Below, piece after piece: positions 10,666 to 22,745 of a stretch of 64,000 bases of DNA (its first letter is position 1; each line of letters begins with the position of its first letter). Both the position numbers and the translations under genes were made by a program. Under the pieces are notes generated by a model that was not told where the DNA came from, searched no databases, and was given only the letters and a program-made list of their open reading frames with translations. The stretch comes from Candidatus Brocadia sp. GTDB lineage: Bacteria; Planctomycetota; Brocadiia; Brocadiales; Brocadiaceae. The stretch spans positions 1 through 64,000 of the forward strand of contig WYAU01000031.1 of the NCBI GenBank assembly GCA_011525665.1, read 5' to 3'.

Positions 10666-11301
10666 ATGAAAATAAATGAGATCTTCAAGAGTATCCAGGG
10701 GGAAACGTCCTATGCCGGCCTGCCCTGTGCCTTCATACGCATAACGGGATGCAACTTACGGTGCAGTTACTGCGATACCACGTATGCGTATGAAGAAGGG
10801 AGGGAGATGCCAATAGCCTCCATCCTTGAGCACGTTGCCGGATTGAAAACGAAATTGGCCTGCATAACAGGTGGTGAACCTCTCCGGGATAAAGATACTC
10901 CGTTATTGACGGATGAGTTGCTTGGTAACAATTATACGGTTTTGGTGGAAACAAACGGTAGTTACGACATTCGTGTCATTTCGCAAAAAGCCGTAAAAAT
11001 TATGGATATGAAGTGCCCTGACAGCAATATGAGTCATCTGATGCACTGGCAGAATATTCATTATCTGACGAAGTCAGACGAGGTAAAATTTGTCTTACAT
11101 TCCCGGAGAGATTATGACTGGGCAAAAGAAATGATAAAGGAATATCGTTTGTCTGAGATTACCAACGTATTGATAGGTACCGCTTTTGGCGCCATCTTGC
11201 CGAGAACGGTCGTTCAGTGGATTTTGGAGGACAATCTCAACGTCCGATTTCAACTGCAACTCCACAAATATATCTGGGAACCACAAACACGAGGGGTTTG
11301 A
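10666..11301 (+). CDS. queE: 7-carboxy-7-deazaguanine synthase
   Basis: Radical-SAM enzyme that turns 6-carboxytetrahydropterin into 7-carboxy-7-deazaguanine on the route to preQ0/queuosine. The N-terminus KINEIFKSIQGETSYAGLPC is diagnostic, and the cluster motif GCNLRCSYCDT (about 27-37) gives the CX3CX2C ligands. ITGGEPL (about 66) is the glycine-rich SAM motif. The protein has 211 residues, normal for QueE. It sits two bases before the GTG start of queC, which performs the next step. Confidence 0.95.
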   Translation: MKINEIFKSIQGETSYAGLPCAFIRITGCNLRCSYCDTTYAYEEGREMPIASILEHVAGLKTKLACITGGEPLRDKDTPLLTDELLGNNYTVLVETNGSYDIRVISQKAVKIMDMKCPDSNMSHLMHWQNIHYLTKSDEVKFVLHSRRDYDWAKEMIKEYRLSEITNVLIGTAFGAILPRTVVQWILEDNLNVRFQLQLHKYIWEPQTRGV

Positions 11302-16979: not shown

Positions 16980-17008
16980 TTGACATAAACTACTTTTTTG
17001 TTTTTAAT
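16980..17008 (+). promoter_or_regulatory. Sigma70-type promoter of the riboswitch operon
   Basis: TTGACA (16980-16985), a 17-base spacer and TTTAAT (17003-17008). The predicted start near 17015 would give a leader of about 245 bases that contains the GEMM aptamer and its terminator. Confidence 0.65.
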
Positions 17009-17049
17009 ATGTCGCAATACACTCCTCTGGCGAAACATAAAAATAAAAC

Positions 17050-17166
17050 ATTACGATAAAGGCAAACCCTGAGTGATCAGGGGACGCAAAGTAAAGGGTC
17101 TTCAAACTTACACGGAAGTATATGTAGTAAAGACACTTGGGTAAAAAAAGATAGCCTTACTGCCGA
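17050..17166 (+). promoter_or_regulatory. c-di-GMP-I (GEMM) riboswitch aptamer
   Basis: The conserved core reads GGCAAA (17061-17066), a hairpin CCCTGA-GTGA-TCAGGG (17067-17082) closed by a GNRA tetraloop, then GACGCAAAG (17083-17091). This is the same arrangement as in the Vc2 class-I aptamer, where GGGCAAACC and GGGACGCAAAG flank a GAAA-capped stem. The second helix is framed by GTCTT (17098-17102) and AAGAC (17130-17134). The 3' strand TAGCCTTACTGCCG (17152-17165) sits where class-I aptamers have their conserved ...GG.T.CCG segment. This same strand is the left arm of the following terminator, which points to transcriptional control. Confidence 0.9.
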
Positions 17167-17208
17167 AAATGTTCGTTGTCAAAATATGTGTGCAGTAAGG
17201 CTTTTTTG
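17153..17208 (+). terminator. Intrinsic terminator overlapping the riboswitch
   Basis: AGCCTTACTGC (17153-17163) pairs perfectly with GCAGTAAGGCT (17192-17202) and is followed directly by TTTTTTG. The 11-base stem uses the last conserved strand of the aptamer. Aptamer folding and terminator folding should therefore exclude each other, which predicts an ON switch when c-di-GMP binds; the sign is inferred. Confidence 0.88.
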
Positions 17209-17259
17209 TTTTAACTTACACCGGTCACTCAGAATACAAACGAAAGGTGAAGGTAAAAC

Positions 17260-17829
17260 ATGGTCCAGGTCGATATACCGATAGCGTTTGCCATAGGCCA
17301 AATCTTTGCCGATGCAGCCCAAAGACAACTGCTGACCCGAAGGCCTGAGTATTACTTGGGTGCATTGGTAAAAAACAACCTGTTTCATATATTCTTCTTT
17401 AGCTGGATTCCCGTTTATTTCCTTGTGAATTATTTTGGCTGGGAAACCACTCATATGTGGTGGCACAAGGATTCTGTGACGGATTACCCTTTCTTCCTGC
17501 CCATATTTCTCCTTGTGTTCTTTTTTGCTGCAAACAGCGGGTTCTGTATATCAACATTCCTGATAAGAAAAAACAAACTTTCCTGGGTCAGAATCACGTA
17601 TAGTGGTATATTCATTTATACCTTCCTGTGGATTTTTGGCCTATGGGGGAGAACAAGCTATCTTGGTTCTTATCATGAATGGGTTCAGGGGACGGCCAAA
17701 AGGGTATGGGATATATCAGGAGGAGAAACATTTATCTACGCGCTGTTTTTTACCCTGGTTGTATGGTTTGTTCCCCTTATTTTTTTCATCCTTAATCTTC
17801 GTTCAGAAGGAAAGCACCTCGATACATAG
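17260..17829 (+). CDS. Polytopic membrane protein of unknown function
   Basis: First gene behind the c-di-GMP riboswitch, 189 residues. I do not recognise a family. About four to five hydrophobic segments are visible: LFHIFFFSWIPVYFLVNYF (about 47), FFLPIFLLVFFFAANSGFCI (about 79), ITYSGIFIYTFLWIFGLW (about 111) and FIYALFFTLVVWFVPLIFFI (about 155). The loops are rich in Trp, Tyr and His. The start ATG at 17260 has GAAAGGTGAAGG just upstream. It is about 140 bases before the lipocalin-like gene, with a palindromic repeat between them. Being first in the operon suggests a membrane part of the same process. Confidence 0.75.
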   Translation: MVQVDIPIAFAIGQIFADAAQRQLLTRRPEYYLGALVKNNLFHIFFFSWIPVYFLVNYFGWETTHMWWHKDSVTDYPFFLPIFLLVFFFAANSGFCISTFLIRKNKLSWVRITYSGIFIYTFLWIFGLWGRTSYLGSYHEWVQGTAKRVWDISGGETFIYALFFTLVVWFVPLIFFILNLRSEGKHLDT

Positions 17830-17855
17830 TGCAGTGCATCCGCAACCAAATTGAC

Positions 17856-17922
17856 ACCTCTTTATCCTCCCCCTTCGCAAGGAGGGGTAAGGGGGGTGGT
17901 AAAAAACTTGCTAAAAAGAGGT
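17856..17922. repeat. Composite palindromic repeat with terminal inverted repeats
   Basis: Flanked by ACCTCTTT (17856-17863) and AAAGAGGT (17915-17922). The core CCTTCGCAAGG is palindromic, and the right half carries GGTGGTAAAAAACTTGCTAA. The same right half recurs at 30181-30215 and, more diverged, near 59436-59460. The ends and lack of coding capacity suggest a small non-autonomous element in the operon's first gap. Confidence 0.7.
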
Positions 17923-17969
17923 TTGTATAAGGTAAAGAATAAGCCGGTACAATAGCGAGGTATAGCCCT

Positions 17970-19130
17970 ATGTTCACGTTATGGTACACCCTTCTTATCG
18001 GATCTTTTGCAGCTTTCATCTTCTTCCTGATTCTGCAAAGGATCATCCCCCTGGTGATAAACTGTTTTGACAGGTCAAATCTCAACGACCGCTATCACCT
18101 CCCGCCGGAGTATGAAATCCCAAGGTATTTTGCCATTAACCCTGACGGCTCCGTTAATGCCAAACGGAAATGGCCGGGGTGGGACGGTTGGTATTTCCTG
18201 GCGCCTTTTGGGCAAAAAGACTCCGCACGACTCGTCCGCGGAAGCATAATGACAGGGATGTACGGCGTTGAAGACATTGATAATTACCAGAGACTGATGT
18301 TAAATCTTTCTACCGATAACGTCATAGAGTGTTTATTCACGTTACCGCAGCCGGAAATAACCTTGCTCTCCCACGAATACCTTCCCAAAGACCTTTATTT
18401 ACAAATGCAGCCTGATCATCTGGATGTAACCGTGGCAAACCGGGGCAAAATAACGGGGAAATGGCCGGAGTATCGGTTTGAGTTGTCTGACCCGCAGGAT
18501 GAAATCACGCTCTCTTTGAGATACAGGGCACAGGATATCATCTGGTGGGCTGATGTGCCTGAAGTGTTTAGTTATTTCACGAGCTTTGGCCACATGGAGG
18601 GTGAATTAACGAGAAGCGGGGAATTGTTACAGGATATAAACTCTATGGGAAGCTTTGAGCATGGTTTTGCAAAAAAGTGTTTTAATTATGATCCACTATT
18701 TTTCCCTGTAAGAATAGTGAAGCGATTGTTCCCGTTTAACGTTATTCGTTATCACTATGATCTGCTATTTAATGAAGAGGGGCTCCATGGAGGATTAATG
18801 TGCTCGGATGGATTCGGAATCAAGCTGCGCAATTTAGGCGGTGTGTATTTGCCGGGAGGTGCGTACGTAAAAATCAAAAAGATTACATCTATTCAGTACG
18901 AGCATCCGAGACGTATGGAGATTGACTGCATGGCCAGACCGGTGACCTTTTACGAACGGTGGCAGGTAAAGGCGGTAACGGAAAAAGGTATTTTAAGCTA
19001 TACCGCCAGGCAAGTTCATCCTCCCGCCCATATTGCCCGGCACATGATTTACTACAGCTTTCTTTTTGATGGTTCATTGGGAGATCAGCGTCTTAGCGGC
19101 AGAGGATACGGGGAATATGTATGCATGTGA
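17970..19130 (+). CDS. Membrane-anchored CrtC/AttH-like lipocalin-fold protein
   Basis: 386 residues with one N-terminal membrane helix (LLIGSFAAFIFFLILQRII), then a large soluble part rich in beta strands and tryptophan. The pattern and the ending LSGRGYGEYV resemble the hydroxyneurosporene synthase (CrtC)/AttH lipocalin-like group, which handles hydrophobic isoprenoid or lipid substrates. This assignment rests on weak motif resemblance. Other notable segments are KWPGWDGWYFLAPFGQ (about 65) and MCSDGFGIKLRNLGGVYLPG (about 276). Between two membrane proteins and a sterol-oxidase-like enzyme, a role in binding or modifying a lipid is reasonable. Confidence 0.65.
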   Translation: MFTLWYTLLIGSFAAFIFFLILQRIIPLVINCFDRSNLNDRYHLPPEYEIPRYFAINPDGSVNAKRKWPGWDGWYFLAPFGQKDSARLVRGSIMTGMYGVEDIDNYQRLMLNLSTDNVIECLFTLPQPEITLLSHEYLPKDLYLQMQPDHLDVTVANRGKITGKWPEYRFELSDPQDEITLSLRYRAQDIIWWADVPEVFSYFTSFGHMEGELTRSGELLQDINSMGSFEHGFAKKCFNYDPLFFPVRIVKRLFPFNVIRYHYDLLFNEEGLHGGLMCSDGFGIKLRNLGGVYLPGGAYVKIKKITSIQYEHPRRMEIDCMARPVTFYERWQVKAVTEKGILSYTARQVHPPAHIARHMIYYSFLFDGSLGDQRLSGRGYGEYVCM

Positions 19131-19202
19131 CGGACTTTATTTGCATTTTTCTCAGCCTCTCAGCATGAAGGTGCAAATTACATTTATCCTGAGGAAGGGT
19201 TT

Positions 19203-19256
19203 TTCTCCTTTACCTCCCCTTATCCCCTCCTCGCGAAGGAGGGAAAAGAGGGGGCA
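19203..19256. repeat. Palindromic repeat of the composite family
   Basis: A stretch reading TACCTCCCCTTATCCCCTCC, then TCGCGA, then GGAGGGAAAAGAGGGGG. It matches the core of the copies at 17856 and 29298 and sits in the second larger gap of the riboswitch operon. Confidence 0.6.
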
Positions 19257-19280
19257 ATTCGGTTGCGGTTCTGATGCGCC

Positions 19281-19661
19281 ATGATATTGACCGATAGCTT
19301 TTTCAAACGTATGTTCCTTATCGCAAGCTTATGGAATCTGCTGGGCTGCGGATTCCTTTTTTTCTTGCCGGGTGTTGTCTTTGTTTCACCTTCCATGGCA
19401 AAACCGGTCCCGCCGTTATTTTACCAGTCCTGGCTTGCCCTTGCCTTTGTTTTTGGCGCTGGGTACTACTTTGTCTATAAAGACATGTATGCCAATAAAA
19501 ATATCGTTATTTTAGGCATCATGGGAAAGACCTTTTTTGCAATAATCTTTTCGGTAAACATGCTCCTGTACGCGGACATACCGAAAATATTCTGGGGTGC
19601 AGTTGGTGGTGATGCAGTCTTCGTCATCCTTTTTTTAATGTTTCTTGCCTATGCAGAATAG
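19281..19661 (+). CDS. Small four-helix membrane protein
   Basis: 126 residues with four hydrophobic segments: FLIASLWNLLGCGFLFFLPG (about 12), WLALAFVFGAGYYFVY (about 51), IVILGIMGKTFFAIIFSVNM (about 74) and WGAVGGDAVFVILFLMFLA (about 104). The overall look is DoxX/DUF-type, but I cannot name a family. Its end overlaps the ATG of the GMC oxidoreductase gene, so the two are translationally coupled. Confidence 0.72.
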   Translation: MILTDSFFKRMFLIASLWNLLGCGFLFFLPGVVFVSPSMAKPVPPLFYQSWLALAFVFGAGYYFVYKDMYANKNIVILGIMGKTFFAIIFSVNMLLYADIPKIFWGAVGGDAVFVILFLMFLAYAE

Positions 19662-21312
19662 AAAATTCAAAAGCCACACAACAAAAAGACGTTACGATAC
19701 AGTCATTATCGGTTCAGGCTTTGGAGGATCGGCAGCGGCATGCCGGTTGGCCCCGTACCTGAAAGATTCTCTCTGTGTCCTGGAGCGTGGTAAACGTTAT
19801 CACATGGGCGAATTTCCCCGTGATTTTTTTAAGCCTAAAGACTGGTGGTGGCGCAATGAAGGAAGCGACGGCTGGACGGGTCTGTTCGATTATACCAGCT
19901 ACGATACGTTTGCCGTGCACCGGTGCAGCGGTGTCGGGGGAGGGTCTTTGATTTATGCCAATGTCATCCTGGAACCGGTCAAAGAAATCTTCAAAAATTC
20001 CCGATGGCCGAGGGAATGTACTGAAGGCAGGCTAATCACCTGGGAAAAGGAGTTTGAGAGACAGTGTAAAAAAGTGCATGATATGCTCAGACCGCAAAAA
20101 ATTCCTTATGGTCTTTTTAAGACACGGGCGCTGAGGCGTGCAGCGGAAAAGATCGGCAGCGGAGATGTGTTTGATACGCCCCCACTGGCTATATATTTTG
20201 GGGAAAGGGGTGTTTATCGGGAAGACCCTTATGACCGAAAATGTCCTGCCCAGATTGGTTGTACCCTATGCGGAGAATGTGTCATTGGCTGTAATAACCA
20301 TTCAAAAAATACCGTTGATTTAAATTATCTTGCCGTTGCCCGGAACCATGGCGCCCAGGTGTTTTCACAGCATGTCGTTCGATATCTGGAACCGGTTGCC
20401 GAAGGATACATTATTCATTTCACCAATCTGAGATGGAACTACAGGGATAGCGTCATCGCCAAGAGGGTTATACTCTCTGCCGGGAGTCTCGGATCAACAG
20501 AACTTCTGTTACGCTGCAAATATGGGTATAAGCGGTATAAGTTTAAAACAGGTCCAACCTTACCCGACCTTAGTGACAAGCTGGGTCATTACTTTTCCGG
20601 GAATGGTGATTTTGGCGGGCTTGCCACCTATACCGACCAGGTGGTCAATTTTGCCGAGGGGCCCACCATAACCGGCATGATAAACTACAGCGCCGGAAAG
20701 AACGGCCAGCGGTTCATCATTGAGGAGGGTGGTTTTCCCGATATCCTGCGGTCGTATCTCAGGAGCAAATTCCCCGATTATGGTATTGCCAGAAAGATCA
20801 TTCAAAAGATCAAGACCTTCGCGGGGTTTGATCGTGGATTGAGCAAAACCTTTTCTGAACTGCTCGGACTCCTGGAATTCCGGTCTGACCATCGCATGCT
20901 GATGTATCTCGTCATGGGACTCGATGCGGCCGACGGGAGAATGGAAATAAATGAGGAGGGATACCTGAACATAAAGTGGGACCCGGAAAAATCATTGCCA
21001 CTGTACCACGAAATAGAAAATACCCTCCAGAAACTTACCCACGGAATTAAGGGAAAATTGATGGGAAATCCCTGGTGGATATCCAGAAACAAGGTCTATA
21101 CGGTGCATCCCCTGGGGGGATGTCCTATGGGACGCAGCAGGGATGAAGGCGTGGTGGATTGCTATGGAAGGGTATTTGGTTATAAAAACCTCTACGTCTC
21201 GGATGGTTCTGTTTTTCCCACTTCGGTAGGGAGCAACCCTGCCATGAGTATTGCCGCATGGGGTGAAAGGGTTTCTGAACATATTATTGACACGGAACGG
21301 AAAAAGGAGTGA
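19651..21312 (+). CDS. GMC-family flavin oxidoreductase, cholesterol-oxidase-like
   Basis: FAD enzyme of 553 residues, predicted to oxidise an alcohol on a hydrophobic (sterol- or isoprenoid-like) substrate. The FAD motif is DTVIIGSGFGGSAAACRLA (near the N-terminus). GVGGGSLIYANV (about 90) is the second flavin contact. The C-terminal HPLGGCPMGRSRD and SVGSNPAMSIAA hold the catalytic His/Asn region. A Cys cluster, CPAQIGCTLCGECVIGCNNH (about 200), matches the Cys-rich insert of ChoD-type enzymes and could hold a metal or Fe-S centre. Only the ATG at 19651 gives a sensible N-terminus. It ends five bases before the phosphoesterase start. Confidence 0.88.
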   Translation: MQNRKFKSHTTKRRYDTVIIGSGFGGSAAACRLAPYLKDSLCVLERGKRYHMGEFPRDFFKPKDWWWRNEGSDGWTGLFDYTSYDTFAVHRCSGVGGGSLIYANVILEPVKEIFKNSRWPRECTEGRLITWEKEFERQCKKVHDMLRPQKIPYGLFKTRALRRAAEKIGSGDVFDTPPLAIYFGERGVYREDPYDRKCPAQIGCTLCGECVIGCNNHSKNTVDLNYLAVARNHGAQVFSQHVVRYLEPVAEGYIIHFTNLRWNYRDSVIAKRVILSAGSLGSTELLLRCKYGYKRYKFKTGPTLPDLSDKLGHYFSGNGDFGGLATYTDQVVNFAEGPTITGMINYSAGKNGQRFIIEEGGFPDILRSYLRSKFPDYGIARKIIQKIKTFAGFDRGLSKTFSELLGLLEFRSDHRMLMYLVMGLDAADGRMEINEEGYLNIKWDPEKSLPLYHEIENTLQKLTHGIKGKLMGNPWWISRNKVYTVHPLGGCPMGRSRDEGVVDCYGRVFGYKNLYVSDGSVFPTSVGSNPAMSIAAWGERVSEHIIDTERKKE

Positions 21313-21317
21313 AAGAT

Positions 21318-22745
21318 ATGCCGGATATACGATATGTATGCCTGTCTGATATGCATCTGGGTGAAGAAGACAGCATTTTAACTAATCTCAAGGGCGCCGG
21401 GAGTGAAATTGATCCATTAAAAGCTGGTCCTGTAATGAAACAACTGGCTGAGTGTCTGCGTGGGCTTATTTCAAAAAACGAGGACAACAAAAAGCCGACG
21501 CTGATTTTGAATGGAGATATCCTCGAACTGGCGCTCTCTAACACCAACCTTGCTGCCATGGTTTTCGAGCGCTTTATAGAGCTGATAATGCCGAAGGGCG
21601 GGGAAATGTTCGAAAGGATACTGTACATTCCGGGCAATCATGATCACCACCTCTGGGAACTTGCACGCGAAACGCAATACGTAAATCACATGAAAAAGTT
21701 CAAGCCCGGTGAAGAGTTGCCGATCCCCTGGCATACAACCAATATGTTTGTCGAAAACGCCCCCTATAGCCCGCCGTCCTATTTCCTGACGAATCTCGTG
21801 AAGAGATCCGAACACTTAAGAGATTTTGTCATTGCCACAGCGTACCCGAACTTTGGTCTTCTTTCAAGGGACCAGCAGAAGTGTGTCATGTTCCATCATG
21901 GTCATTACATAGAAACAATCTACCATGGCATGAGCATATTTAAGAACCTGCTCCATGAGAAACACAATATGCCTGAAAACATCTATGATATTGAGGCGGA
22001 AAATTTCGCCTGGATAGATTTCTTCTGGTCTGCGCTGGGCCGTTCCGGAAAGGCTGGCCAGGAGATGGAAACACTCTACGAAAAAATGATTGACCGGGAG
22101 GAATTTGAAAATGCCCTTTCTGCCTTTGCCGACAATCTTGGCAAAAGGTATAACTTGCCGGGAATTGACTGGCTTACCGTGAAAGGCCTGAAAGTACTCT
22201 TTGGGTACCTTGCAGATATGGTTGCCGGCAGGGAAAGGGCTTATAAAGATCAGGTGTTAAGCAATGATACAGAAAGCGGTCTTCGGAAATATATGAATGT
22301 GCCCCTGAAACAGCAGATCATGACGGACTGCAAACAAAATATCCCCTCTGATGTGACCTTTGTGTTTGGCCATACCCACAAACCTTTTCAGAACGATATG
22401 ATGTTTACAGAGTATCCAGGCTGGGTGAATGTGTATAACACCGGGGGATGGGTGGTAGATACCATAGAGCCGCAGCCGATCCATGGTGGTGCAATGGTGC
22501 TTATTGACGAAGACCTCCATGCCGTTTCGCTCCGGTTGTATAATGAAAATGCCGATCCCGATGCGTATGCAGTAAAGGTTGAAGAAGCCACGCATGCCGG
22601 AGAGGAATCCAATCCATTTCATAAACGGATTGCTGGAATGGTTGATCCCTCCGGCGAACCGTGGAAGAGGTTTTCCCGCATCGTGGCCCGCGCGGTATAT
22701 GAACGCGCACAACTTTTACGTGCACGGATACAGGAAAAGAGTTAG
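21318..22745 (+). CDS. Calcineurin-like metallophosphoesterase
   Basis: 475 residues with the full two-metal set: LSDMHLGEED (about 9), LNGDILEL (about 61), IPGNHDHHLW (about 104), FHHGHYIETIY (about 193) and FGHTHKPF (about 350). The insert between the last two motifs (about 200-340) is helical and carries ENFAWIDFFWSALGRSG. The substrate is unknown; nucleotide, phospholipid headgroup or prenyl phosphate are all possible. The ATG at 21318 has GGAG eight bases upstream. It is last in the riboswitch operon, tightly coupled to the GMC enzyme. Confidence 0.88.
   Translation: MPDIRYVCLSDMHLGEEDSILTNLKGAGSEIDPLKAGPVMKQLAECLRGLISKNEDNKKPTLILNGDILELALSNTNLAAMVFERFIELIMPKGGEMFERILYIPGNHDHHLWELARETQYVNHMKKFKPGEELPIPWHTTNMFVENAPYSPPSYFLTNLVKRSEHLRDFVIATAYPNFGLLSRDQQKCVMFHHGHYIETIYHGMSIFKNLLHEKHNMPENIYDIEAENFAWIDFFWSALGRSGKAGQEMETLYEKMIDREEFENALSAFADNLGKRYNLPGIDWLTVKGLKVLFGYLADMVAGRERAYKDQVLSNDTESGLRKYMNVPLKQQIMTDCKQNIPSDVTFVFGHTHKPFQNDMMFTEYPGWVNVYNTGGWVVDTIEPQPIHGGAMVLIDEDLHAVSLRLYNENADPDAYAVKVEEATHAGEESNPFHKRIAGMVDPSGEPWKRFSRIVARAVYERAQLLRARIQEKS

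Follow-up and report, generated by a model that had tools for sequence, protein, structure and literature searches.

A c-di-GMP class I riboswitch candidate before a GMC oxidase operon in Candidatus Brocadia, one of about 35 related cassettes in the genome

The stretch of DNA analysed here (the window) comprises the first 64,000 nucleotides of contig WYAU01000031.1 of Candidatus Brocadia sp. (GenBank assembly GCA_011525665.1, forward strand). It carries a predicted riboswitch for cyclic di-GMP (c-di-GMP), an intrinsic terminator and, behind that terminator, five co-directional open reading frames that we call p1, p2, p3, p4 and p5. The lineage assumed in the original prediction for this locus holds, as the source is an anaerobic ammonium-oxidizing (anammox) planctomycete of the family Ca. 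Brocadiaceae, to which Ca. Loosdrechtia also belongs. Its genome (G000; 3.63 Mb, 111 contigs, 99.9% complete) was compared with those of congeners, including G106, G138, G305 and G308, and with more distant relatives such as G295, a member of another family. The features of the locus are as follows.

17047-17051 (+): 5′ arm of an extended P1 helix, AACAU, read from the sequence and predicted to pair with AUGUU at 17169-17173 in the ligand-bound form
17052-17168 (+): c-di-GMP class I aptamer (RF03167, 66.5 bits; RF01051, 64.1 bits)
17067-17082 (+): P2 hairpin capped by a GUGA (GNRA) tetraloop, CCCUGA-GUGA-UCAGGG, from the sequence and the Rfam alignment
17153-17163 (+): predicted switching strand, serving as P3 3′ strand (Rfam alignment) or as terminator left arm (fold)
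17192-17207 (+): terminator right arm (17192-17202) and the U tract that follows to 17207, from the fold
17260-17829 (+): p1, a 189-amino-acid multi-pass membrane protein (open reading frame with AGGTGAAGG upstream)
17970-19130 (+): p2, a 386-amino-acid membrane-anchored beta protein, putatively AttH/CrtC-like (Foldseek fold match)
19281-19661 (+): p3, a small membrane protein of 126 amino acids (open reading frame, no family)
19651-21312 (+): p4, a cholesterol-oxidase-like GMC flavoprotein (Pfam, NCBIfam, PDB)
21318-22745 (+): p5, a calcineurin-like metallophosphoesterase (Pfam Metallophos, 29.9 bits, over the cut-off)

A cmscan search of the whole window returned a single Rfam family match, at 17052-17168(+), where RF03167 scores 66.5 bits against a gathering threshold of 59 (E=1.6e-13). 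At the same position RF01051 (c-di-GMP-I) reaches 64.1 bits against a cut-off of 35 (E=4.3e-12) and is covered over its full length, model positions 1-87. The P1, P2 and P3 helices are visible in the Rfam alignment, both conserved cores (GGCAAA and GACGCAAAG) are found, and a GUGA loop is seen in the sequence of P2, its docking into a P3 receptor being an expectation of the class. The 3′ strands are GAUAGCCUUACU for P3 and CCGAA for P1, the latter lengthened by AUGUU. Related units of aptamer and terminator (cassettes) recur in the genome, and ACAT or a close variant is found at the extended-P1 position in many of them. By covariance search and alignment, a genuine class I aptamer of the c-di-GMP type is confirmed at 17052-17168(+), and with it the GEMM aptamer, GNRA-capped stem and core sequences that had been proposed.

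The ligand can be judged from the pocket, for which we use a numbering that we take to match that of Vibrio cholerae Vc2. The equivalents are G20 at 17061, A47 at 17088 and C92 at ~17163 (in a GCC context), and G20, A47 and GCC are identical in all 34 complete cassettes of the genome. The higher-scoring model, RF03167 (c-di-GMP-I-GGC), exceeds its threshold, yet the position-47 equivalent here is A (GACGCAAAG, against a consensus of GACGCGAAG with G). From the name and consensus of that family, we take this G to be the second letter of 'GGC', and on the alignment the top label is a score artefact here. Aptamers of the GEMM-Ib type that sense cyclic GMP-AMP (cGAMP) carry A at position 20, and the Hypr enzymes that make cGAMP carry Ser or Thr at the GGDEF selectivity site. 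This genome encodes 19 GGDEF domains, with Asp at that site in 18, Asn in one and Ser or Thr in none, so that assignment to GEMM-Ib is unlikely with G20 throughout. Because the pocket is canonical and no GGDEF domain has Ser or Thr, c-di-GMP is the likely messenger.

The terminator, which had also been proposed as a perfect 11-bp stem overlapping the aptamer, is found exactly so: AGCCTTACTGC at 17153-17163 pairs with GCAGTAAGGCT at 17192-17202 and is followed by T6. Its predicted folding energy is -18.4 kcal/mol (z=-3.69), and none of 200 shuffled sequences was equally stable. A promoter and terminator scan omits this stem, whose loop exceeds the limit of the scan, and RNA folding recovers it; the promoter scan gave no site above chance (8 found versus 9.8 expected), a TTGACA at ~16980 having too long a spacing. 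The left arm of the terminator uses the same nucleotides as the 3′ strands of P3 and P1, which makes aptamer and terminator mutually exclusive. In the 34 complete cassettes taken together, pairing holds at 366 of 374 stem positions and is perfect in 27 cassettes. Two positions show double changes, with A-U replaced by G-C in two cassettes and U-A by C-G in one, and one-sided G-U changes are numerous. When growing transcripts are folded, structures that keep P2 are best (-28.8) until ~4 bases of the right arm are present, and with the full arm present the terminator state is favoured, at -42.7 for the whole RNA.

Because the left arm of the terminator consists of aptamer nucleotides from P3 and P1, ligand binding should block termination, and we infer from these pairings a transcriptional ON switch for p1-p5. 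In the absence of ligand, 17153-17163 would pair with 17192-17202 and RNA polymerase would halt at the U tract, short of p1. Once c-di-GMP binds, P1 and P3 would hold the same nucleotides within the aptamer, the terminator would be unable to form and the operon would be transcribed. Judging from the sequence evidence, we consider it very probable that this element is a c-di-GMP class I ON riboswitch for p1-p5 and, at the same time, one of the ~35 cassettes of a genome-wide c-di-GMP regulon.

The scale of this regulon is seen from the number of matches over the RF01051 cut-off, which is 35 in the genome studied, or 34 beyond the copy in the window. By the same measure, genomes of sister species in the genus hold 15-53 cassettes each and those of the family's other genera 1-22, and no RF01051 match was found in nine genomes of the second family of the order. 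Genes behind the cassettes encode surface proteins with Ig-like, FG-GAP, RCC1, Kelch or beta-helix domains, and an exosortase cluster has four cassettes upstream. Others encode a DUF1559 pilin-like protein, peptidases of the matrixin, M23 and M28 types, an amidase, a sigma-54 response regulator and a trehalose synthase. This gene list is typical of c-di-GMP and describes a regulon of surface-attached or aggregated (sessile) life. The further copies, which the original prediction missed, weaken the idea of a switch dedicated to a lipid pathway, since the window copy belongs with 34 others to a general c-di-GMP regulon. Our literature search, whose coverage was incomplete, turned up no description of this regulon or of c-di-GMP riboswitches in anammox organisms.

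Several further observations concern the cassettes themselves and the genes they precede. The cassettes of this genome are nearly alike over ~180 bases before unrelated genes, which looks like the spread of a ready-made switch, and some are arranged in tandem (on contig C17 at 9212 and 8997 and at 10963 and 10676, and also on contig C58). Redox genes are found behind cassettes, encoding a cytochrome c552 of the nitrite-reductase type, a cytochrome P460 and a cytochrome c′-like protein; these would provide a link between the second messenger and nitrogen or respiratory redox proteins. A PAS-GGDEF protein, a predicted diguanylate cyclase, is itself encoded behind a cassette (L030, contig C60, 4162-5169(-)), and positive feedback is possible there. 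A complete-looking contractile injection system, with sheath, AAA ATPase with a WHD domain, spike, gp25 and baseplate J, lies directly behind another. The positions of the cytochrome loci and of the injection cluster are as follows.

L019 (G000, contig C65), 1791-3332; L020, 1250-2311; L021, 5044-5691: cytochrome loci behind cassettes
L110 (G000, contig C15, 15500-35400): injection cluster, with the aptamer core at ~693 and the sheath gene at 1206

Returning to the window, the enzymatic character of the operon is clearest at its distal end. The start of p4 is corrected here, most likely to the ATG at 19651, and the protein matches GMC_oxred_N (40.0 bits) and GMC_oxred_C (69.6 bits), both over the gathering score, as well as a cholesterol oxidase in the PDB (E=1.1e-31). 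It scores 218 bits with CholsOxChoxAB (NF058674), under the equivalog cut-off of 850, which places it in the same superfamily only. Conserved His and Asn residues, a flavin adenine dinucleotide (FAD) motif and a Cys-rich CxxCGECxxGC insert are present. The start of p5 is likewise corrected, most likely to the ATG at 21318 after AGGAG, and this protein has no PDB sequence match. For p2, no Pfam or other sequence-family match and no PDB sequence match was obtained. The top Foldseek match of its low-confidence model (predicted local distance difference test, pLDDT, 58) is AttH (2ich; E=1.2e-6, template modelling score 0.38). Other fold matches are the pericyclases Phm7 and Fsa2 and, more weakly, a 25-phosphosteroid lyase (9g2i); identity to this group of proteins is 8-12%, and a membrane helix at the N-terminus precedes the beta fold. 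Nothing relevant emerged from the literature searched for phosphosteroid lyase and AttH. The original prediction is sustained in its calls of p4 as a cholesterol-oxidase-like GMC enzyme and p5 as a calcineurin-like phosphoesterase, and the structural model also favours its AttH/CrtC-type lipocalin-like fold for p2.

The remaining two proteins are membrane partners. No Pfam or NCBIfam family was found for p1, which is kept in 8 genomes of the anammox order at 49-92% identity and whose AlphaFold model (pLDDT 50) is usable for helices alone; p3 is 76-77% identical in its counterparts at loci L048 and L049. On either side of p2 lies a copy of a palindromic intergenic repeat, the two being inverted relative to each other (17839-17904 and 19208-19268); they belong to a REP-like family with 18 matches in the genome.

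We give roughly even chances to the proposal that p1-p5 form a membrane-associated module handling a hydrophobic alcohol, encoded presumably on one operon transcript. In such a module p2, with an AttH-type binding, lyase or cyclase fold, and p4, as a GMC alcohol oxidase, would act with the membrane partners p1 and p3. The module would probably act at the membrane, oxidising the alcohol function of a hydrophobic molecule, and p5 would join as a phosphoesterase. The substrate could plausibly be a lipid or an isoprenoid; its identification as a sterol, ladderane or hopanoid, like a dephosphorylation step, is drawn from analogy and unsupported by our analysis. Most likely, attachment would lead to a rise in c-di-GMP, termination at 17202-17207 would no longer occur and p1-p5 would be expressed along with the matrix genes. 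We advance only tentatively, and regard as rather doubtful, the broader notion that across the genus c-di-GMP acts through dozens of cassettes to turn on both the matrix and a membrane oxidation module (metallophosphoesterase and GMC enzyme, with an AttH-type protein or a haem peroxidase) that modifies some lipid or isoprenoid while cells grow in aggregates. If true, this would amount to c-di-GMP-controlled lipid modification.

Several points weigh against a module of this kind under dedicated c-di-GMP control. The AttH-type assignment of p2 depends on a low-confidence model (pLDDT 58), and the repeats sit in the gaps between p1 and p2 (140 bp) and between p2 and p3 (150 bp), so polycistronic read-through is not certain. 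A further point is distribution. Among 294 genomes drawn from the phylum, p2 is present in three, and in the named-genome collection its sole occurrences are in Ca. Loosdrechtia aerotolerans and in a Planctomycetota metagenome-assembled genome. In these two the order p1-p2-p3-p4 is the same, at 61-79% identity, and it is kept across three genera. Ca. Loosdrechtia and a second-family relative are the only further genomes in which intact p1-p4 was found, and no aptamer was found near p1-p4 in the fetched flanks of either relative. Because both have intact p1-p4 without an aptamer, c-di-GMP control is not intrinsic to the module. In the congener G138, the syntenic site by ProC and transketolase has an aptamer (49.5 bits) immediately before p1 (92% identical), followed by a broken p5; p2-p4 and most of p5 are gone behind the switch. 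The p5 remnant there contains in-frame stops (L091, 5454-5916(-)). Three genomes of another genus have p1 alone, without a switch. Since the switch is absent at p1-p4 or p1 outside the genus and present before p1 in G138, it was acquired within this genus, or else lost in the others, and the G138 operon is in decay. The expectation that the five genes and the aptamer would co-occur in relatives thus fails for the whole set, which is not kept with the aptamer outside the genus and is lost behind the switch in G138.

As a core member of the operon p5 is rejected: the 0.9 kb that follows p4 in Ca. Loosdrechtia, up to the contig end, gave no p5 match, and in G122 the contig ends directly behind p4. 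Some relatives do have p5; its orthologue in G295 (53% identity) lies ~5 kb before a p1-like gene. A single 16-kb stretch of G295 holds this p5, the p1-like gene, a metallophosphoesterase, a GMC enzyme and a catalase-like gene, a gene set that supports a common oxidative pathway.

A link between the switch and GMC enzymes does persist within the genus, and partly rescues the expected co-occurrence. Directly behind a cassette in G106, G138 and G308 lies a different operon, encoding a metallophosphoesterase (708 amino acids), a GMC enzyme (783-788), a haem peroxidase (~810-818) and a thiamine pyrophosphate enzyme. More distally, G305 has GMC and metallophosphoesterase genes in a co-directional cluster ~7-11 kb behind two cassettes. 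Between these cassettes and the GMC gene lies a gene for a caspase-domain protein with DUF7379 (L109, G305, contig C122, 9159-11753(-)). Overall, a co-directional GMC gene 2.3-2.5 kb behind a cassette is found in four of the five congeners that have such a gene, in two operon types. Outside the genus, the fetched flanks of p4 relatives contained an aptamer in none of 11 genomes.

These data bear on the possibility that the cassette is present by spread only and has no selected role, a freely dispersing switch having landed before a decaying operon. The near-identical cassettes at 35-53 per genome, the absence of the switch-operon link outside the genus and the retention of cassette and p1 in G138 after loss of p2-p4 and breakage of p5 would all suit this account. 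It is nevertheless unlikely in our view, as the genome studied has all five frames open with aptamer and terminator intact. Moreover, the GMC and metallophosphoesterase operons of the other type stand behind cassettes more often than predicted from the ~3% share of the genome that falls in the 3 kb after a cassette (two of three operon types there by chance, p ~0.003, a rough and post hoc estimate).

It is more improbable still that the operon serves defence or competition, with the phosphoesterase as a nuclease and the GMC enzyme as a source of hydrogen peroxide, instead of lipid metabolism. Related GMC clusters do contain haem peroxidase, catalase-like and caspase-like genes, and p5 weakly matches the anti-phage phosphoesterase model NF053862 (E=0.0012), but its 17.8 bits of 420 are far under the cut-off, p1-p4 are kept without p5 in two genera and the predicted p2 fold is AttH-type.

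That the RNA senses another cyclic dinucleotide, either 3′,3′-cGAMP as for Geobacter GEMM-I RNAs, which precede cytochrome and pilus genes in a similar gene list (PMC6456294, PMC8835794), or the ligand of the -GGC variant that Rfam ranks first, is very improbable given the uniform pocket, the absence of the -GGC consensus G at position 47 and the lack of Ser or Thr in the GGDEF domains.

If the element is taken as a c-di-GMP ON riboswitch, nothing about its kind is unusual; what surprises more is how large the regulon is and which unusual oxidation genes it has acquired. Anammox bacteria perform nitrogen removal in granules and biofilms and are themselves hard to engineer, and the control of their aggregation is poorly known. 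The 35 switches (up to 53 in congeners) offer a direct list of genes that c-di-GMP would induce, among them adhesins, exosortase targets, cytochromes, an injection system and the oxidation operon. This last group connects the second messenger with GMC, AttH and phosphoesterase chemistry, and provides a lead on lipid or alcohol modification in anammox bacteria.

Each part of the locus has known counterparts. The modelled p2 may resemble AttH/CrtC (2ich), Fsa2 and Phm7 and the 25-phosphosteroid lyase (9g2i) in a two-domain lipocalin-like fold, and differs in its low identity, the lack of a Pfam match and the extra N-terminal membrane helix, as far as a low-confidence model permits comparison. 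With the GMC cholesterol oxidases (1b4v, NF058674), p4 shares the flavin fold and the HPLGGC and SxGxNPxxSI motifs; its score of 218 bits against 850 and its Cys-rich insert set it apart. The aptamer agrees with RF01051, as represented by Vibrio cholerae Vc2, in secondary structure, GNRA-capped P2 and G20/A47/C92 pocket, whereas its platform, seen in 34 complete copies in this one anammox planctomycete genome, is a common 11-bp terminator built on the 3′ strand of P3. RF03167 is the best-scoring Rfam model and has similar joining sequences, but has G in its consensus where position 47 here is A. Finally, Geobacter sulfurreducens has 17 GEMM-I riboswitches, and its GEMM-Ib RNAs are likewise multicopy, partly arranged in tandem, and lie ahead of genes for cytochromes, pili and polysaccharides (PMC8835794, PMC6456294). 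In contrast, the Brocadia cassettes have a c-di-GMP type of pocket in a genome with no Ser/Thr GGDEF domain, and number 35, rising to 53 in a congener.

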